Made by a program: the position numbers and the translations under genes
In this document: in pieces, positions 127 to 28,929 of the stretch
Layout: the number at the start of each line of letters is the position of its first letter
Numbering within the stretch: the stretch's first letter is position 1
The notes under the pieces: model-generated
Seen by the model: only the letters and a program-made list of their open reading frames with translations
Told to the model about the DNA's origin: nothing
The model's database searches: none
Assembly (NCBI GenBank): GCA_022801715.1
Contig: JAAWSV010000007.1
Span: 1-64,000, forward strand
DNA length: 64,000 nt
Origin: Oscillospiraceae bacterium
GTDB taxonomy: Bacteria > Bacillota > Clostridia > Oscillospirales > Oscillospiraceae
Direction of reading: 5' to 3'

Positions 127-235
127 CACTCTTTTCACTTAATGAATGATTTTTGTTTACTTGAGGCCTGCGGGTCGCAAACTCTGGTGCGGGATTTTTG
201 TTAGTGCGGGCTTCGGGGGATACAGCCGTTTCGCT

Positions 236-643
236 CTACCGCAGCAGCGGCAGGCTGCCGGTGAGGTGATCGACCTGCTTTCGCTCCCCGCAGAGGGCCA
301 AACCTATGTAGCGCAGCGCCGTCTCCGGGGTGCGGCCCATTCTCTCAATGTACTCCTTGTAGGTGCGGCATCCTTGGGATAGGTCGGTGAAGTCCACGGC
401 GGTGAGTCCGGCCACCTCCGCCTGCCGGCGCAGGGTCCGCAGCTGCTCCTCGTCGGCGGCGAGAATGGGGATGGGGAAGGTGATGATCCCCCGGTGTACA
501 CCGCCCTCTTGGTCGAGGACATCGGCGCCTACCATGTCCGGGCGGAGCCTGCCCAGTGTGACGCTCAGGACGGCGGCTGTGTTGGCGGCCATGCCGATGG
601 GCAGAGCGGGGGAGAGGAGGATAACGCATTTTTCAGCACGCAT
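236..643 (-). CDS. DUF2000 family protein
   Basis: This 135-residue protein matches the DUF2000 pattern: an opening 'KCVILLSPALPIGMAANTAAVLSVTLG' style strand-helix (residues 5-32), then 'VGADVLDQEGGVHRGI' and 'FPIPILAADEEQLR'. The family is small, soluble and of unknown function. The start is ATG at 643 with AAGGAG upstream. It lies 42 bp downstream of the AraC-type regulator on the same strand, so the two are probably cotranscribed. An AraC regulator beside a DUF2000 protein suggests a small inducible stress or metabolite-handling unit, but the ligand is unknown. Confidence 0.75.
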   Translation of the reverse strand: MRAEKCVILLSPALPIGMAANTAAVLSVTLGRLRPDMVGADVLDQEGGVHRGIITFPIPILAADEEQLRTLRRQAEVAGLTAVDFTDLSQGCRTYKEYIERMGRTPETALRYIGLALCGERKQVDHLTGSLPLLR

Positions 644-685
644 AGGATACTCCTTTTGGCCTGCGCCTGTTCCGGCAAGCGGGCC

Positions 686-1468
686 TCATTTTTTTGCCGG
701 CTCCTGCCGGTAGCTTCCGGGGGAGCAGCCGATCAGGGCGCGGAACAGATTGGTGAGGTGGCTCTGATCGGCAAAGCCGGCGCGGATGGCCGCCTCCGCC
801 GGGGGGACGCCTTGGCGGAGGAGCTGTCCCGCCTCGGCCACCCGCAGAGCCTTTAGATAGCGGTGGGGAGTGACCTGCTTCTCCGCGGCGAAGGAGCGCA
901 GAAGAACGGACTGGCTCACCCCCACCTGCCGGCAGACCTCTGGCAGTGTCACCCGCCGGTGAAGGTTCTCTGTGAGATACTGGCAGGCGGCGGAGACCTC
1001 CGGCCGGATCGACGCCTCCGCCAGCACACCCAAGGTGCGGGTGTCCAGCAGACGGGACATGGCCTCCTGCCACTGCTCCATCCGCCGGCTGCTGCCGCTT
1101 AGGATCATGCGGTGGAGCAGGGAGAGGGCGTCGAAGAGCTCCGGACTGCCGGCGGTGGGGCACAGCCGGGGGAGGGGACCTCCGGTGAGGGCGGCCATCC
1201 GCTCGGCGGGGATGTGGAGAGCCCGGTAGCGCAGGGGGACATGCCCCTCCTGCGCGCAGCTGTGGGTATCGCCGGGGTTGAAGAGGAGAAGCTGACCTTC
1301 CCGGACAGTGAGCGTCTCTCCACGGCAGGTGAGGCGGCGGGTACCGCCGTCCATCAGTCCCACCACGTAATAGGGGTGGAAGTGAGGCGGGAAGGACTGG
1401 GAGAGGCCGTCGAAGGTCAGGGCCTCCACACCCAGCAGGGAGTCGCGATAGGCGATCTTGTGCTCCAT
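686..1468 (-). CDS. AraC family transcriptional regulator
   Basis: A 260-residue regulator. The N-terminal half is a cupin-like sensor ('PPHFHPYYVVGLMDGG' and 'LLLFNPGDTHSC', roughly residues 22-70). The C-terminal 100 residues form the double helix-turn-helix DNA-binding domain, with 'LPEVCRQVGVSQSVLLRSF' and 'AAIRAGFADQSHLTNLFRAL', ending in the usual 'GCSPGSYRQ' box. The reading frame stays open upstream to 1702, but ATG at 1468 is chosen because GGAGG lies just ahead of it. Members of this family activate neighbouring genes, so the downstream DUF2000 gene is the likely target. The cupin ligand cannot be read from sequence. Confidence 0.85.
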   Translation of the reverse strand: MEHKIAYRDSLLGVEALTFDGLSQSFPPHFHPYYVVGLMDGGTRRLTCRGETLTVREGQLLLFNPGDTHSCAQEGHVPLRYRALHIPAERMAALTGGPLPRLCPTAGSPELFDALSLLHRMILSGSSRRMEQWQEAMSRLLDTRTLGVLAEASIRPEVSAACQYLTENLHRRVTLPEVCRQVGVSQSVLLRSFAAEKQVTPHRYLKALRVAEAGQLLRQGVPPAEAAIRAGFADQSHLTNLFRALIGCSPGSYRQEPAKK

Positions 1469-1604
1469 AGAACTGCCTCCTTTGCCGAGAGTATACTTGG
1501 TTTCATGCCGTTTGTCTTGCAAAATACCGTCAAAAAAGGGGGCAGGCACCCCCATAGAAGATCGAAAAGCCCTCGGCAGAGTTTCACCGCTGGCAAGAGG
1601 CAAA

Positions 1605-1638
1605 CCCCTATACCTCCCCTCAAGGGGAGGTATAGGGG
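1605..1638. repeat. Perfect 16-bp inverted repeat
   Basis: The arms CCCCTATACCTCCCCT (1605-1620) and its exact complement (1623-1638) flank a 2-nt loop, in the gap between the rhomboid-like gene and the AraC gene. There is no T-tract on either side, so it is not a standard terminator. Such CCTCCCC/GGGGAGG palindromes occur as dispersed intergenic elements in clostridial genomes. It could also act as a transcript-end hairpin for the rhomboid-like gene. Confidence 0.7.
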
Positions 1639-1658
1639 CGAGGCACAGAGCGCGGCGA

Positions 1659-2531
1659 CTATTCCTCCGTAAAATGCACATGGTTGAAGATGTGCTCCTC
1701 ACAGAAGCAGTGGTAGCCGGCGCAGCGGGAGCAGTAGCGGAAGGACATGTTGGGGTACTCCGCGTCGGTCTTGCCGCAGACGGAGCAGCGGTGGTTGAAG
1801 GCCTTGGGAGCTTGGCTGGCCTTCACGGTCTGCCGGAAGCGGACGGCCTGTCTGCCGGTGCGGACCCGTTCCCGCTGGACCTTCCGGCTGAAGTAAGGGT
1901 AGAAGAACAGCACAAAATTCAGGAGGGCCACAATGGGGGCCATCACGCCGCCCCAGTTATGTCGGCCGGCGGCGCGGAGGATGTCATAGGCCAGCAGGAG
2001 CAGATCGGCCCAGGCTACCCACTTCATCTTCACCGGAATGATGAAAAAGAGGCGTATAACCGTCTCCGGAATCAGCACCGCGCAGGCCAAGAACATGGCC
2101 AAGTTCACGTAGTGGGTGCCCATGATATAGTCTCCGCCGCCGGTGAGGTAGAGGATGATGGAGGCGAGAATGGTCAGCACCGCACCGCTGAGGTAGTAGA
2201 TGGTAAACTTGGGCGTGCCCCAGTAGTCCTCCAGGATGCTGCCGATCCAGTAGTAGAAGTAGAGGAAGAGGGCGAAATTGATGACATTGCTGGAGAAGAT
2301 GCTGGAATACCCGTAGGGCGACACGAAGACAAAGGTGACCAGCCGCCACACCTCGCCCTTCAGTACGCCCGCCGTGGAGTAGGCCAGCAGGGAGTAGGAA
2401 ACGCCGGCGGTGACTAAGTTCAGCGCGTAGAAGATGACGGTGCCGATGATGATGTAGCGCATGAGATTGGGGATGCCCCAGTAGGGGTGCCTGCCGCAGA
2501 AGCGGTCCAGGGCGTCGTAGAGCTTTCTCAA
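1659..2531 (-). CDS. Rhomboid-like membrane protein with C-terminal zinc finger; probably not a protease
   Basis: This 290-residue protein has about six membrane segments between residues 25 and 212. It carries rhomboid-superfamily signatures: 'GEVWRLVTFVF' (59-69) and 'YFYYWIGSILEDYWG' (91-105), followed by 'FTIYYLSGA'. The catalytic GxSG motif is absent where it would be expected; the segment around 134-145 reads GDYIMGTHYVNL, with no serine. A His at 191 in 'GRHNWGG' may correspond to the TM6 position. The soluble tail (residues 240-290) holds Cys249, Cys252, Cys267, Cys270, His274, Cys275, Cys277, His280, His284 and His286, consistent with a bound metal cluster. The start is TTG at 2531, preceded by AAGGAGG. 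It is therefore probably a pseudoprotease or derlin-like membrane chaperone rather than a protease. Confidence 0.75.
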   Translation of the reverse strand: MRKLYDALDRFCGRHPYWGIPNLMRYIIIGTVIFYALNLVTAGVSYSLLAYSTAGVLKGEVWRLVTFVFVSPYGYSSIFSSNVINFALFLYFYYWIGSILEDYWGTPKFTIYYLSGAVLTILASIILYLTGGGDYIMGTHYVNLAMFLACAVLIPETVIRLFFIIPVKMKWVAWADLLLLAYDILRAAGRHNWGGVMAPIVALLNFVLFFYPYFSRKVQRERVRTGRQAVRFRQTVKASQAPKAFNHRCSVCGKTDAEYPNMSFRYCSRCAGYHCFCEEHIFNHVHFTEE

Positions 2532-2651
2532 GGGTAGATCCTCCTTGCGGGTGCTTTTTCTTATCAGTTCAGTTTACCCGAAACAGGCGGGAAAATTATC
2601 ACAGAAATGTAAATTATCTCCGTTTTGGAGGGAGAGAGCAGGCGGTCCGCG

Positions 2652-3521
2652 TCAGTCGGGGCAGATCATCCCGTTTACAAAGCGCATGTTATCAGAGGCC
2701 AGGACCTTTCGGACATACTTCCACTTCGTGCCTCGCGGCTTCTTATAGAACCGCAGGAAGTGCAGCAGAAGGCCGCAGAGCGCCTCCCGATCCCCCTCCC
2801 GGCCCTCCTCCGGGAGATACCGGTGGACATAGCCGCTCTGGGAGGTGCGGGCGTCAAAATAGAGGTCATAGCCGCCCTCCCGGATATCGCACTGCATGAT
2901 CGTGGCCCCCTGACAGCGGAGCAGCAGACTGGTGAACTCCCCGGCCTGGGCCCTTGTCAGAAGGCTTTGCAGGATCTCCGGATAGCTGTCCCGGTCCTTG
3001 GTCTCGATGGTTTGAGAGAAGCGGCTCCCGTCCGGGCGCCAAGCGAAGATCTGCGCGGGGCGGGAGGGGATATATTTCAGGGGGGTGAAGCCGGTGGTGT
3101 CAATGGAGAGTATGCGGCCCTCCTCTGCCAGAAAGTTGTAGAGATAGGTGTAGGGCTGCTCCGCCGCGATGTAGTCGCTGTCACCGTCGGTCACGTGCTG
3201 GAACTGATCCAGCGCGAGGGCCTCTGCCTTCAGCTCCCGGGCGTACTTTACCGGGATGACCCAGCAGGCGAACTGGTTGGACTGGTTAAGGTCTGCGCCG
3301 TGGGCGGTTAGGCTCAGCAGGGGGTTGGAGCTGATCCCCGTGTACCACAGGTTGTCCCGGAGGACCGGTGACAGGCTGCGGGATAGGGAGTGCTCCGGCT
3401 CGTGCCGCAGACTATCGCCGTTGAGATAGCTGTAGCGCCGGATCAGGTCCTCTTTCGCTTTTTTCAGGGATATGTTGCACTGGTAATTTTTCAGCTCCTC
3501 GGGGTCTGTCATATACCACAT
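2652..3521 (-). CDS. Conserved-looking hypothetical protein
   Basis: A 289-residue soluble protein with no signal peptide or membrane segment and no family I recognise. It is rich in Tyr, Leu and charged residues. A C-terminal cluster 'KKPRGTKWKYVRKVL' (around 262-276) is basic. ATG at 3521 is chosen because GGAGG lies 8 bases ahead; a second Met three codons later is possible. It lies 21 bp downstream of the DUF2461 gene on the same strand, so it is probably the second gene of that transcript. Confidence 0.65.
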   Translation of the reverse strand: MWYMTDPEELKNYQCNISLKKAKEDLIRRYSYLNGDSLRHEPEHSLSRSLSPVLRDNLWYTGISSNPLLSLTAHGADLNQSNQFACWVIPVKYARELKAEALALDQFQHVTDGDSDYIAAEQPYTYLYNFLAEEGRILSIDTTGFTPLKYIPSRPAQIFAWRPDGSRFSQTIETKDRDSYPEILQSLLTRAQAGEFTSLLLRCQGATIMQCDIREGGYDLYFDARTSQSGYVHRYLPEEGREGDREALCGLLLHFLRFYKKPRGTKWKYVRKVLASDNMRFVNGMICPD

Positions 3522-3542
3522 AGCTGCGGCCTCCTGTTCAAA

Positions 3543-4205
3543 TCACTCCTGCGTACACAGGGCGGCGAATCGCTCATAGTAGGGTACAAGGAAGTCAAAG
3601 CCCCCCTCGACCCGCTCCAATAGGGCGGGGGTGAAGACCAGCTCGTCATAGGGCCGGTCGCAGCAGAGGCTCAGGCTCTTGCGGCTGATCCAAGGCTCCA
3701 AAATGGGGGAGGGGGCGGTCTTTTTTCTGGCGTACTCCGGTCCCTCCAGGTGGAAATCCTCCTGTCGCTGGAGCTTCCGGGCCAAGTCCTCCATGGGCCG
3801 GGGATTGGCGGCAGTCTCCCGGCGGAAGCGCTCCATGGTCTGGGCGGTGGCGCTGTAGAAGCCCATGCCGTAGGAGCAGAGCTCCGGGGAGATCTCGAAG
3901 TAGAACACGGGACGGCAGGTCCAGGCCTCGCTCTCCACCCGCAGGGAGAGCCAGAGGTGGTCCTTGTAGGGTCCCCGTCCAAAGAGCCGCCGGGCGTCCC
4001 GATAGATCCGGGAGACGTGGAGGTTCAGCCCCAGCTTGGGATAGCGGTCCGCCATGTAGGCGTAAAGGGCCTCCCCTAAGGCCTTCATGGGGCGCTGGAC
4101 GTGGGAGAGGTAGGTTTGTTTGTTCTCCTCGAACCAAGCCCTGTCGTTGTTGAAGCGGATATTCCAGAGGAAATCCACTGTGTCCTGCGTAAAACCGGTA
4201 AACAT
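3543..4205 (-). CDS. DUF2461 (TIGR02453-type) family protein
   Basis: This 220-residue protein opens with 'FTGFTQDTVDFLWNIRFNNDRAWFEENKQTY', typical of the DUF2461/TIGR02453 family. A mid-section 'HVSRIYRDARRLFGRGPYKDHLWLSLR' follows, and the region near 'GFYSATAQTMERFRR' is also family-typical. The biochemical role of the family is not known; members are soluble and widespread. The start is ATG at 4205; an in-frame extension to 4253 has no ribosome site. A promoter reads into it from 4296 to 4269, and it probably also drives the unknown gene at 2652-3521. Confidence 0.8.
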   Translation of the reverse strand: MFTGFTQDTVDFLWNIRFNNDRAWFEENKQTYLSHVQRPMKALGEALYAYMADRYPKLGLNLHVSRIYRDARRLFGRGPYKDHLWLSLRVESEAWTCRPVFYFEISPELCSYGMGFYSATAQTMERFRRETAANPRPMEDLARKLQRQEDFHLEGPEYARKKTAPSPILEPWISRKSLSLCCDRPYDELVFTPALLERVEGGFDFLVPYYERFAALCTQE

Positions 4206-8066: not shown

Positions 8067-8186
8067 GTCGGCTGTCAAAAGGTCAATCGTCCGCCGGCAG
8101 GTGACAAATTTCGTTCCGCAGCTAAAATTTACCGCGGGATGGCCAAAGCACAGCTTTGACATCCTGCTGTTTCCTGAAAAAAGAGG

Positions 8187-8215
8187 TGGAAAACAGGGAG
8201 AAAATACGCTATAAT
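8187..8215 (+). promoter_or_regulatory. Probable promoter of the SLH nucleotidase-like gene
   Basis: A TATAAT box (8210-8215) lies 39 bp before the start codon. The -35 region 17 bp upstream is weak (TGGAAA, 8187-8192). Confidence 0.45.
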
Positions 8216-8254
8216 ACATTCCATCGTCATAGAACACAAGGAGGAGATACACAG

Positions 8255-10360
8255 ATGAGAAAGCAGAGAGTGCTGTCCTTGGTCTTGGCCTTGGTGATGG
8301 CCCTGAGCCTCTCCCTATGCGTCAGTGCCGATGAGAGCGGCGATCTGACCGGTGCGGTGGTGGTTATCCACACCGGGGATGTCCACGGGTCTATAGAGGG
8401 CTACGCCAAGGTGGCCGCCATGAAGAGCACCTATGAGGCGGCGGGGGCCTATGTGCTGCTCCTCGACGCCGGCGGCTTCGCCTCAGGGAGCCCCTACGTC
8501 CGCCATTCCAGTGGTGTGTCCGCGGTGGAGCTGATGAACGCCGCCGGCTACGTCGCCGCCGCGGTGGGGGAGAACGAGCTGAGTTATGGACAGGAGAAGC
8601 TGCAGGCGCTGACTGATCTGTCCAATTTCCCCCTGCTCTCCGCCAGCGTGATGAAGGGGGAGCCCCTTCTCCCCACCCATCAGATTTTTGAGGCTCCGGA
8701 CGGCCTGAAAATCGGCGTTTTCGGTCTCACCGCCCCGGAGATTGCCCACACCCTGAGCCCCAGTGCCGGAGAGGGCCTTACCTTCCTCACTGGCAGCGCC
8801 TTGGTCCGCGCGGCCAAAAACGAGGCTGCCGCCCTGCGGGAGGCCGGCTGTGAGCTGGTGATCTGCCTGAGCCACTTGGGCCTGCAGGGGGACGACGGGG
8901 CCCTGAGCCTTTTGAGGCAGGCGGAGGGCATTGACCTGATGATCGACGGCCACGCCCACACCACCCTGGAGGAGGTGAAGAAGGCCACCGGCGGCACCTG
9001 TATGGTGGGCGAAACCGCCCTCACCGCCGCCGGCAGCAGCTTTGCCGAGGTGGGCGTGGCGGTGTACATGGACGGGGAGATCGTCGCCCGGTCCCTGCCC
9101 TTGGACACCATCGCTGTCTCCGACGAGGCGGTGGCCGCCAAGGCTGCGGCCATTACAGACGAGGTGGACCGCTGGCTGGGCGAGACCATCGACAGCGCCC
9201 CCGCCCGCTTGGTCGGCGGGGCGGAGGCCCGGCGGGGGGAGACCAACTTGGGCGACCTTGTCTGTGATGCCATGCTGGTCTGGACTGAAGAGTTCGGCGG
9301 TGAAGTAATAGGGGAAATGGTGGATGCGGCCCTCCTCAGTGGCGGCGTTCTCCGGGACAGCATTGCTGCCGGGGAGGTCTGCTATGCCGACATCGCCGCT
9401 GCCTTGACTCCTGGCGAGACCTTGTGCACCATCCGTGTTACCGGTGCGGCCCTGATGGAGGCGTTGGAGTCTATGACTGCCGCCGCGCCCAAGGAGAGCT
9501 CCTCCTTCCCTCAGACAGCGAGAATGGACTTTGCCCTGAACATGTTGGAGCCCTTTGAGAGCGCTGGCTACTACCCCAATACCGAACAGTTGAAGCCCGC
9601 CGCCATCCATCGTGTGACCGTCACTGCGGTGGGCTATAAGGAGTTCGACCCTGAGGCCATCTACACTGTTGCCATCAATAGCAGCCTCAGGCCCGCGGCC
9701 TTCGCCCCTTTTGAGCGGAGCCGGATCAACTTGGGCGAACCCTTGGAGGATGTGTTAGCTATCTGCGGCATCGGGGCGCTGGACCCCGGCAGCTACGCGG
9801 AGAGCGCCGGGCGCATGAAACTGGTGGGTTATCAGGACGTCACCAGCGACAAGTGGTACGCCTCGGCGGTGAACTATGTCAGCACCACGGGCCTGATGCA
9901 GGGCTCCGCCGGCCTGTTCCGCCCCGGTGAGGCCATGAACCGGGCCATGCTGGTGACGGTGCTCTACCGTATGGCCGGCTCCCCGGCGGTGGAGGGGACC
10001 TCCCCCTTCACCGATGTGCCGGCGGGCAAGTGGTACACCGATGCGGTGCTCTGGGCCAGCAAAAATGGCATCGTCCAAGGCCAGACCGCCGACACCTTCG
10101 CCCCCAACGCCAGCATCACCCGCCAGCAGCTGGCCACCTTCCTCTACCGCTACGCCCAGGCGAAGCCCGTCCAGTCCAACCTCTCCGCTTTCACCGACGC
10201 CGGCCAGGTGAGCGCCTACGCCGCTGACCCTTTGGCTTGGGCGGTGGAGAACGGCTTCGTCGGCGGTACCACCCCCACCACCTTGGCCCCCCGCGACACC
10301 GCCTCCCGCGCCATGGTTGCCGCGGTGCTCATGCGGTATCAGCAGGGACAGGCGGAATAG
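8255..10360 (+). CDS. Secreted 5'-nucleotidase-like protein with SLH anchor; active site altered
   Basis: A 701-residue surface protein. It has a signal peptide (residues 1-25, cleavage near VSA-D), a metallophosphatase domain (about 30-290), a 5'-nucleotidase C-terminal domain ('NLGDLVCDAML' and 'LLSGGVLRDSIAAGEVCYAD', about 325-520) and three SLH repeats (about 525-701) for cell-wall binding. Metal-site residues are partly lost. The first motif keeps Asp42 and His44 (TGDVHG). The expected DAGD reads DAGG (Gly74), and the expected GNHE reads GENE (105-108). Later His motifs (LSHLG, DGHAHT) remain. UshA-type enzymes hydrolyse nucleotides outside the cell; with these changes, catalysis is doubtful. 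The start is ATG at 8255, preceded by AAGGAGGAG. Confidence 0.88.
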   Translation: MRKQRVLSLVLALVMALSLSLCVSADESGDLTGAVVVIHTGDVHGSIEGYAKVAAMKSTYEAAGAYVLLLDAGGFASGSPYVRHSSGVSAVELMNAAGYVAAAVGENELSYGQEKLQALTDLSNFPLLSASVMKGEPLLPTHQIFEAPDGLKIGVFGLTAPEIAHTLSPSAGEGLTFLTGSALVRAAKNEAAALREAGCELVICLSHLGLQGDDGALSLLRQAEGIDLMIDGHAHTTLEEVKKATGGTCMVGETALTAAGSSFAEVGVAVYMDGEIVARSLPLDTIAVSDEAVAAKAAAITDEVDRWLGETIDSAPARLVGGAEARRGETNLGDLVCDAMLVWTEEFGGEVIGEMVDAALLSGGVLRDSIAAGEVCYADIAAALTPGETLCTIRVTGAALMEALESMTAAAPKESSSFPQTARMDFALNMLEPFESAGYYPNTEQLKPAAIHRVTVTAVGYKEFDPEAIYTVAINSSLRPAAFAPFERSRINLGEPLEDVLAICGIGALDPGSYAESAGRMKLVGYQDVTSDKWYASAVNYVSTTGLMQGSAGLFRPGEAMNRAMLVTVLYRMAGSPAVEGTSPFTDVPAGKWYTDAVLWASKNGIVQGQTADTFAPNASITRQQLATFLYRYAQAKPVQSNLSAFTDAGQVSAYAADPLAWAVENGFVGGTTPTTLAPRDTASRAMVAAVLMRYQQGQAE

Positions 10361-12563: not shown

Positions 12564-13841
12564 ATGGAACAGAGAACCATCGGCAAATTCATCACCGCCC
12601 TGCGGAAGGCCAGCGGCATGACCCAGCGGGACTTGGCGGAGCGGTTAGGTGTGTCGGACAAGAGCGTCAGCCGCTGGGAGCGGGACGAGGGGGCGCCGGA
12701 CCTGTCCCTGATCCCGGTGCTGGCGGAGATCTTCGGCGTGACCTGCGACGAACTCCTCCGGGGGGAGCGCCGTCCCCCGGAGGAGCGGGCGGCGGTCAGC
12801 GAGGAGGGGAGCACCCTCCGGGGGGAGAAGCAGCGCCGGCGGCTGGTAAAGGCGGCTCTCTCCCAGTACCGCTCACGGGTTTACATCGCCGCGGGCCTCT
12901 CCCTCTTAGGGCTGATTGCGGCCATGATCGCCAATTTGGCCTTCCTCCAAGCTATCTTAGGATTCTTCTTGGGGACCGCCTTCTATGTGGCCAGCGCCAT
13001 CTGCTTGGCCATCTTCGTCAACCGGGCTTTCCTCAGCGTGGAGGATGCGGGGCTGGAGGAGGGGGAGCTGTCCCAGTTCAAGCGGCAGGTCATCGCCTCC
13101 GCCCGCCGGTCCTTAGGACTGACCGTGACCCTCTTGGGCTTCACGGCCCCGCTGCTGCTGGCGGGAGCCTACACGGGTCTGGGTACGGAGGCCACGCTGC
13201 TCCTGGGCACAGTCTGCGCCGCCGTGTTCCTGCTGGTCTACGCCATAGTCTGGCACTTCCTCACCCCTGCCCTCCTGCGGCGGGGGGTGTACACCTTAGA
13301 GGCACAGGAGGAGGCGGCCTACCGACATAACCGCAGGCTCCTCCGCCGCTGTACCGCCGTCCTGACGGCCCTGCTCCTCGTCACCCTCCTATCCCACCAG
13401 GCGGTCACCGTCATCTGGGGTCCTTGGACCATCATGGAGGGGGAGGTGTTCCATGACTATGACAGCTTCGCCGCCTGTATGGAGCGGGACATCCCCCACC
13501 CGGACGGGCCCCGCGGCGTTCAGGCCGTGGCGCCGGAGTCGGTGGAGCACTACTACGACGAGTCCGGCCAAGAGATCAGCCAAGAGGAGGCGTTCCGCCA
13601 GACCTTGGAGGACGGGGAGGGGAACGTGGTGTGCACCTACATCAAGCGAAACGACAGCGTCATCTCCATCCAATACAGTGAGAATGAGGACGGCACCCTC
13701 CTGCCCATCACCGTCTACACGCAGGACGACTACGACCGGGCGGTGAAGAAGGCCCACCGCCGCCACGTCCTCTTCGCTGTCCTCTGCTGTGCCGAGATTG
13801 CCGCTGTCGCAGCGGCCTACCGAAAAAAGCGGGTAGGGTAA
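12564..13841 (+). CDS. XRE family regulator with C-terminal membrane domain
   Basis: A 425-residue protein. Residues 1-65 form a helix-turn-helix of the Cro/CI type ('IGKFITALRKASGMTQRDLAERLGVSDKSVSRWERD', then 'LIPVLAEIFGVTCDELL'). A linker follows, then four or five membrane segments (about 108-155, 195-255 and 275-295). An extracytoplasmic stretch (about 300-400) comes next, then a final membrane segment (about 405-420). Such architectures, common in Oscillospiraceae, suggest a membrane-tethered regulator responding to an envelope signal; this is inference. The start is ATG at 12564, with AAAGGAG upstream. The 178-bp gap before it holds several short inverted repeats (for example CCATCC/GGATGG) but no clear promoter. 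Confidence 0.85.
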   Translation: MEQRTIGKFITALRKASGMTQRDLAERLGVSDKSVSRWERDEGAPDLSLIPVLAEIFGVTCDELLRGERRPPEERAAVSEEGSTLRGEKQRRRLVKAALSQYRSRVYIAAGLSLLGLIAAMIANLAFLQAILGFFLGTAFYVASAICLAIFVNRAFLSVEDAGLEEGELSQFKRQVIASARRSLGLTVTLLGFTAPLLLAGAYTGLGTEATLLLGTVCAAVFLLVYAIVWHFLTPALLRRGVYTLEAQEEAAYRHNRRLLRRCTAVLTALLLVTLLSHQAVTVIWGPWTIMEGEVFHDYDSFAACMERDIPHPDGPRGVQAVAPESVEHYYDESGQEISQEEAFRQTLEDGEGNVVCTYIKRNDSVISIQYSENEDGTLLPITVYTQDDYDRAVKKAHRRHVLFAVLCCAEIAAVAAAYRKKRVG

Positions 13842-13886
13842 AAATGGAGGGCCAAAATCACAAATTTCCCACTCCCAACACCGCAG

Positions 13887-13928
13887 ACAGCAGGAAACGA
13901 GAGGCGTCCGCCTCTCGTTTCCTGCTGT
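13887..13928. terminator. Bidirectional terminator between convergent genes
   Basis: A perfect 19-bp stem (13887-13905 with 13910-13928) with a 4-nt loop sits between the XRE gene and the FMN-binding lipoprotein gene. It can stop transcription from both sides. Confidence 0.85.
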
Positions 13929-13965
13929 TCGACCCTCTCAATAAAGCACGATTCCCGTGCCCTCG

Positions 13966-14406
13966 TCAGTGTGCCGTGTCCACCAACACAATGCTGGAGT
14001 CCCCCTTGCGGGCCTGCTCCAGCACCGCCTCCGCCAGCTTTTGGAAGGAGCTGTGGGAGGAGGTGGCTCCGGTCAGCGCGTCAATTCCACCATTCCCCTG
14101 TCCCTCCAGAAGCTGTCCGGCGTAGTAGCGGGTGTACTCGTTGGGATAGGTGCCGTTGACGTGGAGCATATTCTGCATATAAGCGTTGTCCCAGCTCTTG
14201 ATAAAGCCGCTGGGGTTTTCGGCGTTGTACTCCACGGAGACAATGCTGCCGTCCTTTACCATGATGGTGATGTACTCCTTCCAGCCGTGGCTGTACTCCG
14301 CGGCTTGGGCGGTGTAGTAGCCGTCCTGGAGGGTGTCCTCCCCGCCGCAGGATGTCAGAGCTGCCACCAGAAGCAGGGCCAGGACGATCATGACAATCCG
14401 TTTCAT
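13966..14406 (-). CDS. FMN-binding lipoprotein
   Basis: A 146-residue exported lipoprotein with a signal peptide ending in the lipobox LTSC (Cys20). The body is a single FMN_bind domain (about 26-140). The segment 'DALTGATSS' (109-117) matches the covalent flavinylation motif D-x-x-(S/T)-G-A-(S/T)-x-(S/T) seen in NqrC, RnfG and the electron-transfer lipoprotein PplA. FMN would be attached by an ApbE-type transferase, which is not in this window. The start overlaps the upstream chemoreceptor's stop by four bases (ATGA), so the two are translated together. A role in extracytoplasmic electron transfer or redox sensing linked to that receptor is inferred. Confidence 0.88.
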
Positions 14407-16430
14407 CTGCCGCTCTCCTCCTTCACAACAAATTTCTTCACTTGGAAGCGCAGGGACTCCGCCTCCTTGGCCAGCAGCCCGCTGGACTGCTCTGTGCCGG
14501 TGGCGTTCTCAAGGTTCCGTTCGGCGATGGCGGCGATGGTCTCGATCCGCTCCTCCATGATGGACAGGGCGCTCTCCTGACTCTGCACCGCGGCCACCAG
14601 ATGGTCGGTGATGTTGCTGATCTGGCCGGAGACGGCGGAGATATCCTGGAGAGAGCTGGCGGCGTCGGCGGTGAGTTCCACGCCGGTCTGGATGATGGAG
14701 TGGGTGCTTCGGACCATGTCCGCGGCACTCTGGGCGGCCTCGCTGCTTCGGGAGGCCAGCTGGCGGACCTCGCCGGCCACCACGGCAAAGCCCTTCCCGG
14801 CTGCGCCGGCCCGGGCGGCCTCCACCGAGGCGTTGATAGCCAGAATCCCCGTTTGGAAGGCGATGTCCTCAATGTCCTTGGCGATCTGGGTGATCTTCTG
14901 GGCATTGGCGCTGATGTCGCCCATGGCGGCGGAGAGGGCGTCCATGCGGGTGTTGGCCTCTTGGATGCACTGGGCGATCTCCTCGGTCTTGGTGCGGGTC
15001 TGACCGCTGCTCTCTGTGACGCTGGTCAGGCGCTCCTTCACATGGGCCACCTCGCTGACCAGTTCCTCTGTGGACTGGGTCTGCTCCACCGAGGCCTGCT
15101 GGAGCTGGCCGGACTGGCCGTTGAGCTCCTCGGACATCTCCGCCAGACGGCTGGCGGCGTCCCGGAAGCCGGTGATGGTGGCGTTCATGGACTGGAGGAT
15201 GGTGCCAAGGCTGGCTTGGATCAGGGCGAAGTCCCCCTGATAGCTCACCTGAGGCTCCGCTGTCAGATTCCCCCGGGCCACCTGCGTCAGCACCTGCTGG
15301 ATATCGGATATGTAGCGGTTGATGCTCTCCACGGTGGCGCTCAGTGTGCAGGTCAAGACCTCCAGCTCATCCCCGGAGCGGACCTGGACCACCTCTGTGT
15401 GGAGATCGCCGTTGGACAGGGCCACCATGCGCTCGGTCACGCTCTTCACCGGGCGGGAGATGGACCGGGCCAGACGCAGTACCACTAAAATGGACAGGGC
15501 CAGCACCAGCAGGGTGGACAGCACCGCCACCAGCATGGCGCCGTTGATATAGGAGGCGTAGTCCGCCTTGGGGACTTGAATCACCAGGGACCACTGGGTT
15601 CCACGAATGGGGGCGAAGGCCGCCAGCATGGTCTCCCCGCCCACGGAGAACTCCGCGGCGCCGGTCTCGTCGCTGGTGACGCGGTTGACCACCGTCTGAT
15701 TTCCGCCGATGAGCTGGTCCGCGGCGCTCCCGGAGAGAATCAGGGACTGGTCCGGGTGGCCGGTGACGGCGCCGGTGTGGCTGACCATGTAGGCCATGCC
15801 GTGCCGGCCCAGGTTGATGCTGCTGATCACGTCGTTAAGCGTGTCATACTTGTAGACGCCGACCACATACAGCGCGGTCTCCCCGTCAATCTTCACAGGC
15901 ATCCCCATGGTGATGCCCAGCTGGTCCTGGAACCGGGTGGAGGCATCTGTGGTCAGGTTGTCTGTCTCCTGCAAGAGGGCGAAGAAGCTGCTGTTCAGGC
16001 TCTCCGGCGCGCCGCTGATCCCTTGGATCAGACGGCCGTTGAGGTCATAGAGGGCGATGGTGTGGAACTCATAGACCTCGGCGGCCTCGGTGAGCACCAG
16101 GTTCCGGTTTGTCCGGAGGAGGCCGGCGTTGACCGCCCCGGTCTCCGGGTCTGCGGCGGCGGACTCCCCCATGCGGGAGTCTGCGGCGATGGACATCATC
16201 CGGTCCGCCAGCATGTGGATATTGGCCTCCACGGTTTTGGCCGACTGCCGCGCCATAGGCTGCATGCTGTCCAGCAGAATATTGTTGGCCAGAGACTGCA
16301 TCGCCGCCGCCATAATCACACAGCACACAATCACCAGCACCAGAATGTTGAGGATCGTATTCTTCAAGATCTTGCCATTGAGGCTCCTTTTGATCTCCCG
16401 TTTTGAGGAGTCTGCTCTATTCCCGGACAC
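14403..16430 (-). CDS. Methyl-accepting chemotaxis protein (dCache-type sensor)
   Basis: A 675-residue transmembrane chemoreceptor. An N-terminal membrane segment (about residues 22-45) precedes a large periplasmic-side double-Cache-like domain (about 46-300, containing '[19 protein letters not shown]'). A second membrane segment (about 305-330), a HAMP domain ('[17 protein letters not shown]') and a long coiled-coil signalling domain follow. The hairpin tip is intact ('[35 protein letters not shown]'). GTG at 16430 is chosen because AAGGAG lies nine bases ahead; another GTG at 16436 is too close. The gene has a structured leader and is coupled to the FMN-binding lipoprotein, suggesting a redox-linked signal. 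Confidence 0.93.
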
Positions 16431-16457
16431 GTCCACATTCTCCTTTTCTTTGTCGTC

Positions 16458-16547
16458 CCCAAGCTGCCGCCCGCGGTGCCTTGGGGCATAGGAAAAGCCC
16501 ACCAACATGCCGCGGGCGCCATGAGGCCAGCCATGGCAGCGGTTGGG
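16458..16547 (-). other. Structured 5' leader of the chemoreceptor mRNA
   Basis: The leader contains long-range complementarity. CCCAA (forward 16458-16462) pairs with TTGGG (16543-16547). GCTGCC (16463-16468) pairs with GGCAGC (16535-16540). GCCCGCGG (16469-16476) pairs with CCGCGGGC (16510-16517), and small hairpins lie inside. A competing hairpin GCCATG/CATGGC (16518-16523, 16532-16537) shares bases with the outer helix. It lies just upstream of the ribosome site. It matches no riboswitch class I can name with confidence. The rest of the 379-bp gap (16431-16809) holds the two divergent promoters. Confidence 0.4.
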
Positions 16548-16561
16548 AGACTTCGCGTCAT

Positions 16562-16590
16562 AGTATACCATGCGGCAGTCAAAAAGGGAA
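16562..16590 (-). promoter_or_regulatory. Possible promoter of the chemoreceptor-lipoprotein operon
   Basis: TATACT (complement of 16562-16567) has a weak -35 (TTCCCT, complement of 16585-16590) 17 bp away. Transcription from here would give a leader of about 125 nt. Confidence 0.35.
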
Positions 16591-16725
16591 GCCCCTTTTT
16601 TGGTATTTAGCCCCTCTTGGATCACAGTAAATTTCCCTGAACGGCCAGCCCGGCGGCGCCGGCACACGGGAGATCAGGCGGAGGGGAAGAGACGGGGATT
16701 CTGCTTCTCCCTTTCGGGGGGACTA

Positions 16726-16754
16726 TTGCTTTTGTGCCCAGCGGGCGGTATAAT
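16726..16754 (+). promoter_or_regulatory. Promoter of the LRR/VWA/MoxR cluster
   Basis: TTGCTT (16726-16731) and TATAAT (16749-16754) are separated by 17 bp, 55 bp before the first LRR gene. Confidence 0.6.
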
Positions 16755-16809
16755 GTCAGCAGAAAAATATGGCCGCGTGGACACAGAAATCAATACGGAG
16801 GAAACAGCT

Positions 16810-19626
16810 ATGGCCAACAGCGATTTTGACATCCGAAACGGTATGCTCCAGCGATACACCGGCCCCGGCGGGGACGAGGTCCTGCCGCCGGAGGTGCGCA
16901 GCATCGGTGCCGACGCTTTTGCCGGCTGCGAGACCCTGCGCACCCTGCGCATCGACGGCAAAATGGACTTCATCGGCACCGATGCCTTCGCCCGTTGTCC
17001 CAACCTATCGGTCTGCGCCCCCCAGCACCCGCCGGGGGACGCTTGGGACGCGGAGAGCCGCCTGCGCATGGCCTTGGGCTACTGCGCCGCCCCGGAGCTG
17101 TACAAGGGGGACGTGGCCGCGGCCTACGCCCGGTACGCCAAGGGCCAGCGCAAGCGCCTTGAGAGCGCCGCCCGGCGGATGGGCCTTGCCGCCGCCCTCC
17201 AATACTTCCCGGAGGAGCCGGAGAAGCCCGTCAACTACAAAAAGCTCAGCGAGAAACAGAAGGTACTGGCTCTGGAGGAGGCGGTGTTCTCCGGCGACAT
17301 GGACCGCATAGAGGCGGTTTTGACAGGCTGCAAAACCTTCGAGTTTACCGCGCGGGCCTTAGGCCTCGCCTGCCGCTTCGGTTCCCTCCCCATGGTGCGC
17401 CGTCTGATAAAGGCCGGATGTAATTTCCGCCTGACGCAGGATGTGGGCCTCACCAGCAAGTACGATATCTACACCAACTACACCGGCTACTTCAACAGCC
17501 GCTTGGTGTGGCACCGGTTTGAGTACATGCTGATGGCCGACACCCTGACAGACAAGGAGCGCTTCGGGGACTTCCGGGGCCTCACCGGCATCCTGCCCGA
17601 GGGGGACGGGGAGCGCCCGCCCGTCCCGGAGGCGGAGCGCCTTGAGATCCTCCGCTGCCTCACCACAACAAAGAGTGCCCAGACGGACTTGGAGGGCCTG
17701 TTCTACACCGCCGTGACCGAGGGCCGTGATCCCTTCATACAGGTGTTTTTGGACCAGAACGTCCCCCTCACCAGCTTCGATGTCTCCCGACTGGAGTCCC
17801 GGCAGCGCATGGATGTCCTCCCCCGTATGCTGAACGTGGCCAAGGCCCAGCGGAGGTGCCAGGTCCCCGTGACCTTGGGCATCCTCCAGTCCGTTCAGGA
17901 CGACGCCGCCTTGGTGGAGCGCCTTTTGGACGAGGGGAAGCTCCCCAACAAATTGGATACCACCAAGCTCCTCAAAGGCTCCCTCGCCGCCGCCAACGCC
18001 GGCACCCTCACCCTCTGCCTGAACCGGGGCTTCTGCCGGAGTATTGCCACCCGGGACAAGCTCATCGAGCAGTCCATCGCGGAGAACCGCCCCGAGCATA
18101 CCGCGGTCCTGCTGGCATACAAGAACCGCACCGCGGACCTCCAGAAGGAGGCCGCCCAGCAGGAGGCAAGAGATCTGAAGGATCTCACCGCCGCCCCGGA
18201 CTCGGTGTACATGATGAAGAAGTTCTGGCAGTTCAAAAAGCAGGAGGACGGCACCCTGATCCTCACCGGCTACAAGGGCCCCGGCGGTGCGGTGTGGGTG
18301 CCGGAGAGGATCGGCAAGGACCCAGTTACCGCCATCGGTGAGAGGGCCTTCTCCCCCCTCGCCCTCCGCCTCACAGCGGAGCAGAAGGAGCAGCGGGAGA
18401 CCGCCATCACCTCCGTCACCATCCCAAAGACCATCACCTCCTTGGGCCGGATGCTGTTTGAGGGCTGCCGCGGCTTGGAGGAGGTCCATATCGAGGCCTC
18501 CGTCACCACCTTGGAGAAGTGCACCTTCCGAAACTGCGCCGCCCTCCGCCGCGTCACGCTTCCCGAGGGCCTGAAGGTGATCCAAGAGACGGCCTTTGAG
18601 TACTGCGTCAGTTTGGAGTACATTACCCTGCCCCAGAGCCTCCAGTACCTCCACAACGGGGCCTTTGGGCACTGCTACGCCCTCCGGGAGATCGAGCTCC
18701 CCGCGGAGGTCAAAAAGCTGGGCAAGTGGCTGTTTCAGGACTGCCAGTCCCTGACCCGGGCCGTCCTGCCCGAGGGGCTCACCGAGCTCCCCGCCGACCT
18801 CTTCAGGGCCTGTGAGCGGCTCCGGGAGGTGACCATCCCCCGAAAGGTGCGGGCTATCTGCTCCTCCGCCTTCGAGGGCTGCTGGGCCCTGACGGAGATT
18901 GACCTCCCCCCGCGGGTGCGGGAGCTGGAGTACGGCGTTTTCCGAAACTGTACCGGCTTAGAGCGCATCACCCTGCCGGAAAATCTGGGGGTCATCAGCT
19001 CCTTCGTCTTCTCAAACTGTAAGAAGCTAAAGAGCATCCGCCTCCCCCGAACCATGACGCGCATCGGCGCCAACGCTTTCGAGAACTGCGTCAGCCTGAG
19101 GACCGTGGAGATGCCCAACTCCCTCCGGGATCTCCACATCGGCGCCTTTGAAAACTGCGCCGCCCTCCGCTCCATCACCCTGCCCCAGAGCCTTAAGGAG
19201 ATCGACAGCACCGTCTTTAAAAACTGCACGGCCTTGGAGGAGGTGACCCTCCCGCCCTTCATCCAGCGCATCGGAAACTACGCCTTTGAAAACTGCGCCG
19301 CCCTGCGGCACGTTGACATCCCCATCACCCTCGCCTCCATCGGCCCCAGCGCCTTTCAGGGCTGCACCGCGCTGACGTCCATGGACCTGCCGGAGATCAT
19401 CCAGCATATCGGCGGCCGGGCCTTTGAGGGCTGTACCGCCCTGAAAACCGTCATCATCCGGGCCAACGCCACCAAATTTGGCGACGTGACCGACCTGAGA
19501 AACCGCTTCATCCTCAACACCGCCGGTGTCTTCAGCGGCTGCGAGGATCTGACCATCCACGCCAAAGCCGGTTCCAGTGCCGCCGCCTACGCCAAGGAGC
19601 ACAATCTCCCCCTGACACTCCTATAA
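16810..19626 (+). CDS. Large cytosolic LRR_5 (BspA-like) protein with ankyrin-like helical region
   Basis: A 938-residue protein. A short N-terminal LRR_5 block (about 10-60, 'RSIGADAFAGCETLRTLRID') is followed by helical repeats resembling ankyrins (about 155-210, 'ACRFGSLPMVRRLIKAGCNF', and about 357-420). A junction strand module 'EDGTLILTGYKGPGG' then leads into roughly fifteen LRR_5 units (about 500-938) of the form 'AFENCVSLRTVEMPNSLRDLHIG'. No signal peptide, SLH or sortase motif is visible, unlike typical surface BspA proteins, so it should stay in the cytosol. The start is ATG at 16810, preceded by GGAGG; upstream in-frame Mets lack one. It opens a plus-strand cluster with DUF2201-VWA and MoxR genes and is a candidate recognition or scaffold component. 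Confidence 0.85.
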   Translation: MANSDFDIRNGMLQRYTGPGGDEVLPPEVRSIGADAFAGCETLRTLRIDGKMDFIGTDAFARCPNLSVCAPQHPPGDAWDAESRLRMALGYCAAPELYKGDVAAAYARYAKGQRKRLESAARRMGLAAALQYFPEEPEKPVNYKKLSEKQKVLALEEAVFSGDMDRIEAVLTGCKTFEFTARALGLACRFGSLPMVRRLIKAGCNFRLTQDVGLTSKYDIYTNYTGYFNSRLVWHRFEYMLMADTLTDKERFGDFRGLTGILPEGDGERPPVPEAERLEILRCLTTTKSAQTDLEGLFYTAVTEGRDPFIQVFLDQNVPLTSFDVSRLESRQRMDVLPRMLNVAKAQRRCQVPVTLGILQSVQDDAALVERLLDEGKLPNKLDTTKLLKGSLAAANAGTLTLCLNRGFCRSIATRDKLIEQSIAENRPEHTAVLLAYKNRTADLQKEAAQQEARDLKDLTAAPDSVYMMKKFWQFKKQEDGTLILTGYKGPGGAVWVPERIGKDPVTAIGERAFSPLALRLTAEQKEQRETAITSVTIPKTITSLGRMLFEGCRGLEEVHIEASVTTLEKCTFRNCAALRRVTLPEGLKVIQETAFEYCVSLEYITLPQSLQYLHNGAFGHCYALREIELPAEVKKLGKWLFQDCQSLTRAVLPEGLTELPADLFRACERLREVTIPRKVRAICSSAFEGCWALTEIDLPPRVRELEYGVFRNCTGLERITLPENLGVISSFVFSNCKKLKSIRLPRTMTRIGANAFENCVSLRTVEMPNSLRDLHIGAFENCAALRSITLPQSLKEIDSTVFKNCTALEEVTLPPFIQRIGNYAFENCAALRHVDIPITLASIGPSAFQGCTALTSMDLPEIIQHIGGRAFEGCTALKTVIIRANATKFGDVTDLRNRFILNTAGVFSGCEDLTIHAKAGSSAAAYAKEHNLPLTLL

Positions 19627-27283: not shown

Positions 27284-27342
27284 GGACGCGGGGACTTTCC
27301 TGGTTTGATCCTGAAATTTATCCTGTCTTTGGAGGCATGTGT

Positions 27343-28929
27343 ATGAAAGGCAAGCTCACACTACAGCGCCGCTTGGTCCTGCCCATCGCCCTGCTCGGGC
27401 TGGTGATTTTGCTCTCAAACCTCTTGGCGGTGTTCAGCATCAACAATGTCCACGCCAACGCCGGTACCATTGTGGACGAATATATGGTCAGCGAGGCGAA
27501 GCTGGAGGAGATCCGGCGCTCCATCATGGATCTGCACCGATTGGCCCTCAGCCACATAGTGGCGGCGGACCACGCTACCATGATACATATCGTGCAGGAG
27601 ATCAAGGCGGAGGAGGAGGCCTTGGACGAAAAATTGGCGGAGTACGAGGCCTTTGTGACCGAGGCGGACCAAGGGGTGTACCGCGGCGTGTTGGAGGAGT
27701 ACGATGCCTTCAAGCACGCCTTGGTGGATTTGGTCAGTGCCAGCGCCGACAGCAAGACGCAGGAGGCCTACGCCACGGCCAACGGCGATGTGGCCCTGCG
27801 GGGTGCCGCCGCGGAGGAGGGGATTGACGCGCTTTCCGCCTCTGTGGCCGCGCAGGCGGAGGCGGCGCGGGGGCGCCTGTTCTGGGTGTACATAGCCGCT
27901 TTAGTGATCAGCACCGCCGCTCTGGTGGTGGGGGTGCTGCTGGTGTGGGCGGCGCTGCGGATCATCCGCACCTATGTCATTGATCCCATCCATGGCGCCA
28001 TGGGGACGCTTCAGGACAGTGCCCAGCGCCTCAGCGGCGTGGTGGGGGAGGTCCGGGTGCGGACCCGAACCTCCAGCGGCAGCGCCCGGGGCCTCTCCGG
28101 CCTGACGGATCAGCTCTCCGCCGCCTTGGAGGAGATTGCCGGCAGTACCACCGCCATCACCGCCAGCACCGACCGCACCCAAGGGGACGCGGTGAACATG
28201 GCCGAGACGTGTGCCGCCATCACCGCCTACTCCGCCGAGATGCGGGAGCGGGCGGAGGAGATGGAGCGTAACGCCCACAGGGAGATGGAGGCGGTTCAGG
28301 CCAAGACGGCAAAGATCATGGGCCTCCTGGAGGGTGCTATCGAGAAAAGCCGCAGCGTGGACCAGATCGGTACGCTGACAAAGGATATTCTCTCTATTGC
28401 CTCCTCCACGGACCTGATTGCCATCAACGCCTCGGTGGAGGCTATGCGGGCCGGTGCGGCGGGGAAGGGGTTTGCCGTGGTGGCGCAGGAGATCCGCCGC
28501 TTGGCGGATTCCTGCGGAGAGACCGCCGGCCACATCCAGGCGGTGAGCAAGGTGGTGACCGAGGCGGTGCGCTATCTCTCCAGCAGTGCCCAGGAGCTGG
28601 CGGACTACTTGGGCGGGGCGGTGTCCACCCAGCTGGAGCGGTCTGTCCAGCTGGGCCAGCAGTACCGCGGCGACGCTGCCTACATCCAGAGGGCCATGGA
28701 GGACTTCAATGGCCAGGCGGACCGCCTGCGCCATGCCATGGCGGATATTGCCGGCTCCATCTCCAGCATCTCCGGCGCGGTAGAGGGGGCGGTGTCCGGT
28801 GTCACCGGCGTGGCCGGCAGTACCCGGAGCTTGGCGGAGGACATGGCCGGCATCACCGCCGGTATGGACACCAATCAGGAGATCGTAGGCGAGTTGCAGC
28901 ACCAAGTGGATGTGTTTGCCAATCTGTGA
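27343..28929 (+). CDS. Methyl-accepting chemotaxis protein (four-helix-bundle sensor)
   Basis: A 528-residue chemoreceptor. The first membrane segment is at about residues 10-32. A 150-residue all-helical extracytoplasmic domain follows ('EEIRRSIMDLHRLALSHIVAADHATM'), resembling the 4HB_MCP fold. The second membrane segment is at about 182-208, and a long signalling coil has a conserved tip ('[33 protein letters not shown]'). Only a short HAMP-like stretch ('YVIDPIHGAM') joins membrane and coil. ATG at 27343 is preferred: GGAGG at 27331-27335 is seven bases ahead of it but only one base from the ATG at 27337. It follows the binding protein by 59 bp. Confidence 0.9.
   Translation: MKGKLTLQRRLVLPIALLGLVILLSNLLAVFSINNVHANAGTIVDEYMVSEAKLEEIRRSIMDLHRLALSHIVAADHATMIHIVQEIKAEEEALDEKLAEYEAFVTEADQGVYRGVLEEYDAFKHALVDLVSASADSKTQEAYATANGDVALRGAAAEEGIDALSASVAAQAEAARGRLFWVYIAALVISTAALVVGVLLVWAALRIIRTYVIDPIHGAMGTLQDSAQRLSGVVGEVRVRTRTSSGSARGLSGLTDQLSAALEEIAGSTTAITASTDRTQGDAVNMAETCAAITAYSAEMRERAEEMERNAHREMEAVQAKTAKIMGLLEGAIEKSRSVDQIGTLTKDILSIASSTDLIAINASVEAMRAGAAGKGFAVVAQEIRRLADSCGETAGHIQAVSKVVTEAVRYLSSSAQELADYLGGAVSTQLERSVQLGQQYRGDAAYIQRAMEDFNGQADRLRHAMADIAGSISSISGAVEGAVSGVTGVAGSTRSLAEDMAGITAGMDTNQEIVGELQHQVDVFANL

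Follow-up and report, generated by a model that had tools for sequence, protein, structure and literature searches.

Does a flavin-binding lipoprotein that is encoded directly behind a chemoreceptor take part in sensing, or does it owe its place there to electron transfer or to the mere history of gene order? In the window, i.e. the whole stretch of 64,000 nucleotides analysed here, the two genes are encoded on the minus strand, as are all features described below unless stated otherwise. A methyl-accepting chemoreceptor (MCP) of 675 residues with a dCache sensory domain (14403–16430, from the reading of the open reading frame and its Pfam domains) is followed by a lipoprotein of 146 residues with a single FMN_bind domain (13966–14406, from the reading of the open reading frame, Pfam, NCBIfam and an AlphaFold2 model). 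As the sequence-only reading had claimed, the stop codon of the receptor overlaps the start of the lipoprotein, since the four bases ATGA (14403–14406) are common to the receptor TGA (14403–14405) and the lipoprotein ATG (14404–14406). The Shine-Dalgarno sequence of the lipoprotein gene (AAGGAGGAG; 14415–14423) lies within the final receptor codons, and AAGGAG or a near variant is found at this site in nearly all homologous junctions printed. The translational coupling seen here would be expected to set the ratio of receptor to lipoprotein.

The region ahead of the receptor gene (16486–16570) contains a conserved extended -10 promoter and, after it, a long hairpin that has GGCUUUU at its end and forms the beginning of the transcript. 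The promoter-like element (TGGTATACT; 16562–16570) has the form TGnTATACT in the leader alignment, with CTTCCnTTT upstream, and the hairpin of the 5' leader (16486–16561; -30.6 kcal/mol), which ends terminator-like in GGGCUUUU, folds only mildly better than shuffled sequences (window z -1.37). GGCTTT is present in 50 of the 71 loci with sufficient upstream sequence and pairs upstream in 40 of these 50, and some loci are without the element. The hairpin is possibly an attenuator; RNAalifold found no consensus structure on the leader alignment, and Rfam gave no match for positions 13000–17200 of the window at E values of up to 1. A sigma-28-like promoter upstream of the receptor was considered as well and found not convincing, the pattern being present in only 4 of the 71 loci.

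The other neighbours of the pair in the window code for a PTS EIIC component, an HTH regulator and an LRR protein, and thus do not provide the genes for extracellular electron transfer (EET) with which PplA is encoded. Divergent from the receptor gene, a protein of 1018 residues with BspA-type leucine-rich repeats is encoded on the plus strand (16570–19626), which also carries, elsewhere in the window, the genes for a 5'-nucleotidase-like protein with three S-layer homology domains (8156–10360) and for a second chemoreceptor, whose sensory domain is a four-helix bundle (27337–28929).

With respect to the lipoprotein itself, the proposal of one FMN_bind domain together with a covalent flavinylation motif held, the domain (residues 46–130) being a marginal match just above the curated Pfam cut-off (22.5 against 22 bits, E = 1.8e-4). 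A lipobox, LTSC, is read in the sequence at 14347–14358; its cysteine, Cys20, predicted to be lipidated, is invariant in the lipoprotein alignment (the structure alignments have 78 rows, as this one does, and 69 rows) and would anchor the protein to the outer face of the membrane. The sequence DALTGAT at residues 109–115 (14062–14082), with Thr115 as the predicted acceptor, is read as an ApbE flavinylation motif because it fits the form D-x-x-[S/T]-G-A-[S/T] given in the accessible part of a review of ApbE (PMC12052999). Exact matches to D..[ST]GA[ST] are found in 70 of 81 homologues and in 80 of 90 receptor-linked sequences, so that the imperfect members count against a redox mechanism; if the fourth position may also be Ala (D..[STA]GA[ST]), the motif is present in 79 of the 81 homologues, and GA[ST] in all of them.

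The AlphaFold2 model of the lipoprotein (pLDDT 81.7) has as its top match in the PDB the protein CPE2226 (3o6u; TMt 0.80, E = 6e-10). CPE2226 and A3DHT5 (2kzx), both uncharacterised FMN_bind proteins from Clostridia, have the same fold at 40% and 27% identity, respectively, but in the alignment neither has the signature that marks the receptor-linked lipoproteins (KSWD and GTYPNEYTR). The PplA-type flavinylated EET lipoproteins of Listeria likewise combine an FMN_bind lipoprotein with an ApbE motif, and the second half of the PplA model matches the window protein (NCBIfam NF041941, E = 1.3e-24, model positions 177–298 of 302 only). However, PplA has two domains whereas the window lipoprotein has one and is encoded with a chemoreceptor rather than with EET genes, and since its score is far below the cut-off of the model (86.9 against 325 bits) it is not PplA itself. 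Having the domain, the exported-protein motif and ApbE in its genome, the lipoprotein is regarded as a putative ApbE-flavinylated FMN_bind protein.

ApbE, which had been proposed as a companion of the pair, is indeed encoded in the genome of the window, itself with a lipoprotein-like signal, and it is present in 51 of the 52 pair-carrying genomes examined (11 further loci stand outside this count). This co-occurrence is only weak evidence for a redox role because the genome of the window needs ApbE anyway for RnfG, the sole other FMN_bind protein found there at Pfam level, which belongs to a cluster that we take from its sequences to be Rnf. The same genome also encodes CheA, FliG and flagellins and has 10 MCPsignal matches.

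All domains of the receptor score above their curated Pfam cut-offs: the extracytoplasmic dCache_1 domain (residues 52–284, 15579–16277; 56.2 against 45 bits), the HAMP domain (residues 319–370, 15321–15476; 42.7 against 25 bits; HAMP_2 is also above its cut-off) and the MCPsignal output domain (residues 489–634, 14529–14966; 101.4 against 34.6 bits). The structure model of the ectodomain (pLDDT 84.8) matches the solved dCache ligand-binding domains of McpH, PctA and CtaA. Together with TlpC, these are dCache chemoreceptors with known ligands, and they combine the dCache fold with an MCP output as the window receptor does; all four bind small molecules themselves and are not known to use an accessory lipoprotein. 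The R.WY amino-acid motif was not seen by eye in the distal module of the window receptor.

In a genome scan comprising one genome per species (84,980 species), 264 stretches were confirmed, and the best 80 of these were analysed. Among the best 80 of 264, the lipoproteins are 73–95% identical to that of the window, and in 79 of the 80 a receptor of the same type directly precedes the lipoprotein gene on its strand, some of the receptors being cut at their far end by contig ends; the remaining locus, L106, starts at a contig edge. The four-base overlap ATGA is exactly alike in 74 of 80 junctions, that of the window included; in the remaining six the spacing ranges from -1 to +14. In turn, the flanks are not common to these loci, as the most frequent homologous open reading frame recurs in 9 of the 63 flanks upstream and in 7 of the 75 downstream, and the nearest open reading frame downstream of the pair is on the same strand in 40 and on the opposite strand in 34 loci (n = 74). 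Because the flanking genes differ between loci and the downstream frame is found on either strand about equally, the pair is a stand-alone two-gene operon. In the flanks of these best 80 of 264 loci, no reductase, cytochrome or other electron-transfer gene is conserved beside the pair.

In the family of the window, 21 of 200 genomes had a match, at 23 places; the neighbour analysis covered 16 of these besides the window's own, the other six being weak matches (E ≥ 1.5e-4). At a lipoprotein identity of at least 38%, a dCache chemoreceptor is directly upstream in 10 of 11 places, and three lipoproteins at about 50% identity keep a receptor that is itself only about 31% identical. One of these receptors (L039, genome G106, 883–2919, minus strand) is broken by a stop codon, which points either to decay of the pair or to an assembly error. 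In the eleventh place (L046, 38%; 210–3952, minus strand), a lipoprotein without the flavinylation motif overlaps by four bases a downstream gene for a hybrid histidine kinase, a dCache-HAMP-HisKA-HATPase protein of 1061 residues with two receiver domains, i.e. the same sensor module with another output. The gene order is swapped here as well, the kinase being downstream of the lipoprotein whereas elsewhere the receptor is upstream.

In the Lachnospiraceae, the family of the Schaedlerella genome that carries L079, 18 of 250 genomes matched, at 19 places. At 52–83% identity a dCache-type chemoreceptor is directly upstream in all 11 places, three of which (L068, L079 and L092) overlap the set of the best 80 and one of which (L304) has its receptor reduced to the final 155 residues by a contig end; at 35% identity or less, a chemoreceptor is adjacent in none of the eight places. 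At the level of the order (394 genomes; neighbour analysis of 12 stretches, weak places excluded), strong matches to the lipoprotein and to the receptor ectodomain were found in the same three genomes and adjacent to each other, and the weaker ectodomain matches (62 bits or less) are taken to be other dCache proteins. Conservation of the pair across genomes, for which the sequence-only reading had suggested to look, is therefore established among the best 80 of 264 relatives and in both families down to the identities given, and chance pairing is excluded by it. The same reading had held that the link might be accidental if the lipoprotein were found elsewhere only with electron-transport genes and never with receptors; the opposite was observed, in that all scorable members of the clade adjoin a dCache sensor.

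At the class level, 59 of 391 genomes matched, with about one stretch per gene and tandem-domain matches taken together. The 75 loci compared contain 76 distant FMN_bind genes, of which two only, L219 (5032–7248, minus strand) and L221 (5009–7195, minus strand), are directly adjacent to a chemoreceptor; most of the others adjoin ApbE or genes without relation to them. In these two genomes of one genus the lipoprotein lies 18–27 bases behind the chemoreceptor, which has no dCache match, and the lipoprotein carries DAISGCT or DVISGCT as its motif and belongs to a separate FMN_bind branch. The 32 nameable same-strand upstream neighbours of the distant relatives include eight ABC transporters and one chemoreceptor, that of L221 (that of L219 was missed by the gene caller), counts that are approximate as genes were called as the longest non-overlapping open reading frames; the receptor search covered all open reading frames. 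In a tree of 83 proteins, which included 14 of the 80 pairs plus others and left out distant proteins of more than 230 residues, all 25 rows linked to a dCache sensor are on one side of a single branch (support 92/99), and the boundary of this lipoprotein clade coincides with the presence of a dCache sensor partner; the exact placement of L046 is unsure because of its long branch. A constant tie of the lipoprotein to electron transport is rejected for the receptor-linked clade and holds for some of the distant lipoproteins.

The clade also has residues of its own. When 90 receptor-linked sequences were compared with 57 others, 26 lipoprotein positions were clade-specific, having a residue shared by at least 95% of the clade and by no more than 25% of the others; 17 of them are within residues 59–93. 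These numbers are inflated by close kinship, although members down to about 50% identity are included. F68, W72, M77, G85-T-Y-P-N89 and Y91-T-R93 are conserved at 98–100% in the receptor-linked clade. By contrast, the flavin-site positions D109, G113, A114 and F121 are common to this clade and the other relatives; as the motif and these residues are thus also found in electron-transfer relatives, they are by themselves no argument for sensing. Since the region of the flavinylation motif is kept and a constrained patch of the clade's own is added, the patch is a candidate partner or ligand surface. In 76 core pairs, constraint is stronger on the lipoprotein than on the receptor, with a mean distance of 0.202 as compared to 0.309 for the dCache domain and 0.280 for the signalling part.

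On account of the conserved pairing, the identical junctions, the swap to a kinase, the single group in the tree and the invariant residues of the clade, we conclude, with a probability of roughly 0.85, that the lipoprotein is a dedicated accessory part, an extracytoplasmic co-receptor, of the dCache chemoreceptor. Whether it would in addition report the redox state to the receptor via covalent FMN, the full mechanism that the sequences suggest, is in our view an even bet. According to this mechanism, ApbE would attach FMN to Thr115, as the motif and the presence of ApbE suggest, and the redox state of the flavin would be changed by redox compounds outside the cell or by electron transport in the membrane. 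The lipoprotein, in a redox-dependent or ligand-bound state, would then contact the dCache domain, and the signal would pass via HAMP to CheA and the flagella, the genes for which are present, so that the cell would swim according to the availability of electron acceptors. The loss of the motif in L046, the fact that no reductase or cytochrome travels with the pair and the coevolution result given below count against it.

A co-receptor without redox readout would satisfy the same pairing evidence. Here the lipoprotein would capture a small molecule (a flavin, a quinone or another compound) and present it to the dCache domain, the covalent FMN being structural or a relic, much as periplasmic binding proteins present ligands to Tar and Trg. 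In these binding-protein co-receptors of chemotaxis, MBP-Tar and RBP-Trg, a separate extracytoplasmic protein likewise feeds a transmembrane receptor, but in the window this role would fall to a putative flavoprotein whose gene shares an operon with that of the receptor. Such a role is in line with L046, which retains a sensor partner despite having lost the motif, and with the AlphaFold2 model, in which the stretch that links strand 3 to the next helices contains the clade-specific residues (F68, W72, M77, GTYPN and YTR). However, the retention of the GA[ST] acceptor in every one of the 81 close homologues is hard to explain if flavinylation were irrelevant, and we consider this alternative rather unlikely.

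Slightly less probable still is that the lipoprotein acts as a PplA-like electron carrier or reductase whose substrate is sensed separately by the receptor, the two being co-expressed without contact. The nearest characterised relative, PplA, is an EET flavoprotein, and ApbE is often next downstream of the distant relatives (14 of 43 nameable same-strand neighbours, a chemoreceptor being found in none of the 43; approximate counts, as above). Coevolution, too, gives no sign of contact: covariation of the lipoprotein with the ectodomain did not exceed that with the cytoplasmic part in 79 pairs (effective number 67; low power), and in 76 core pairs the partial correlation of distances with the lipoprotein was 0.017 for the ectodomain and 0.353 for the signalling part, an outcome compatible with contact as well as with its absence. 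An electron carrier is disfavoured, however, by the lack of any further conserved electron-transfer gene next to the pair and by the constancy of the partner, which in both bacterial families is in every case a dCache sensor, once with a kinase output. Finally, that the two genes have stayed together by mere descent or operon inertia, as might be thought of 80 genomes that are Clostridia where named and whose lipoproteins are so similar, is highly improbable and largely refuted by the flank conservation test, since the other neighbours have changed, the pair persists at 50–60% lipoprotein identity and the clade boundary is that of the sensor partner.

Receptors tied to the sensing of electron acceptors or redox state, as is proposed here, have been described in other bacteria. 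The Cache receptor SO_2240 of Shewanella is required for gathering around insoluble electron acceptors, and the available text mentions no FMN lipoprotein as its partner (PMC5789149), while Aer, an FAD-PAS protein, reads redox by its own cytosolic FAD, unlike the window receptor with its separate lipoprotein (PMC12540587, as far as accessible). Protein flavinylation in turn is described, in the parts available, as a device of electron transfer (PMC8238504, PMC11334425, PMC12052999). In the accessible portions of these two flavinylation surveys and the ApbE review there is no passage on chemotaxis, a chemoreceptor, methyl-accepting proteins or a sensor, although the supplementary tables of the surveys may hold the pair unremarked; the accessible text of a 2025 review of flavin redox switches mentions neither flavinylation nor lipoproteins (PMC12540587). 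As far as the open-licence PMC full-text literature was accessible, no report was found of a flavinylated or FMN-binding lipoprotein paired with a chemoreceptor or kinase.

Beyond this locus, it may tentatively be proposed, with rather less confidence than the redox mechanism itself, that flavinylated lipoproteins are modular extracytoplasmic redox co-receptors, which would plug into dCache chemoreceptors in Oscillospiraceae and Lachnospiraceae, into a dCache hybrid histidine kinase in L046 and, on the separate branch of L219 and L221 with its motif D[AV]ISGCT, into a non-Cache chemoreceptor, and by which gut bacteria might steer or regulate according to extracellular electron acceptors. The signature of the clade allows for an easy annotation of receptor-linked lipoproteins, and since named strains with deposited genomes, for instance Schaedlerella arabinosiphila DSM 106076 (L079), carry the pair, these ideas are directly testable. 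If the lipoprotein is flavinylated and dedicated to the chemoreceptor, this would be a sensory use of flavinylation, and, if true, strict gut anaerobes would thereby gain a means to find electron acceptors.
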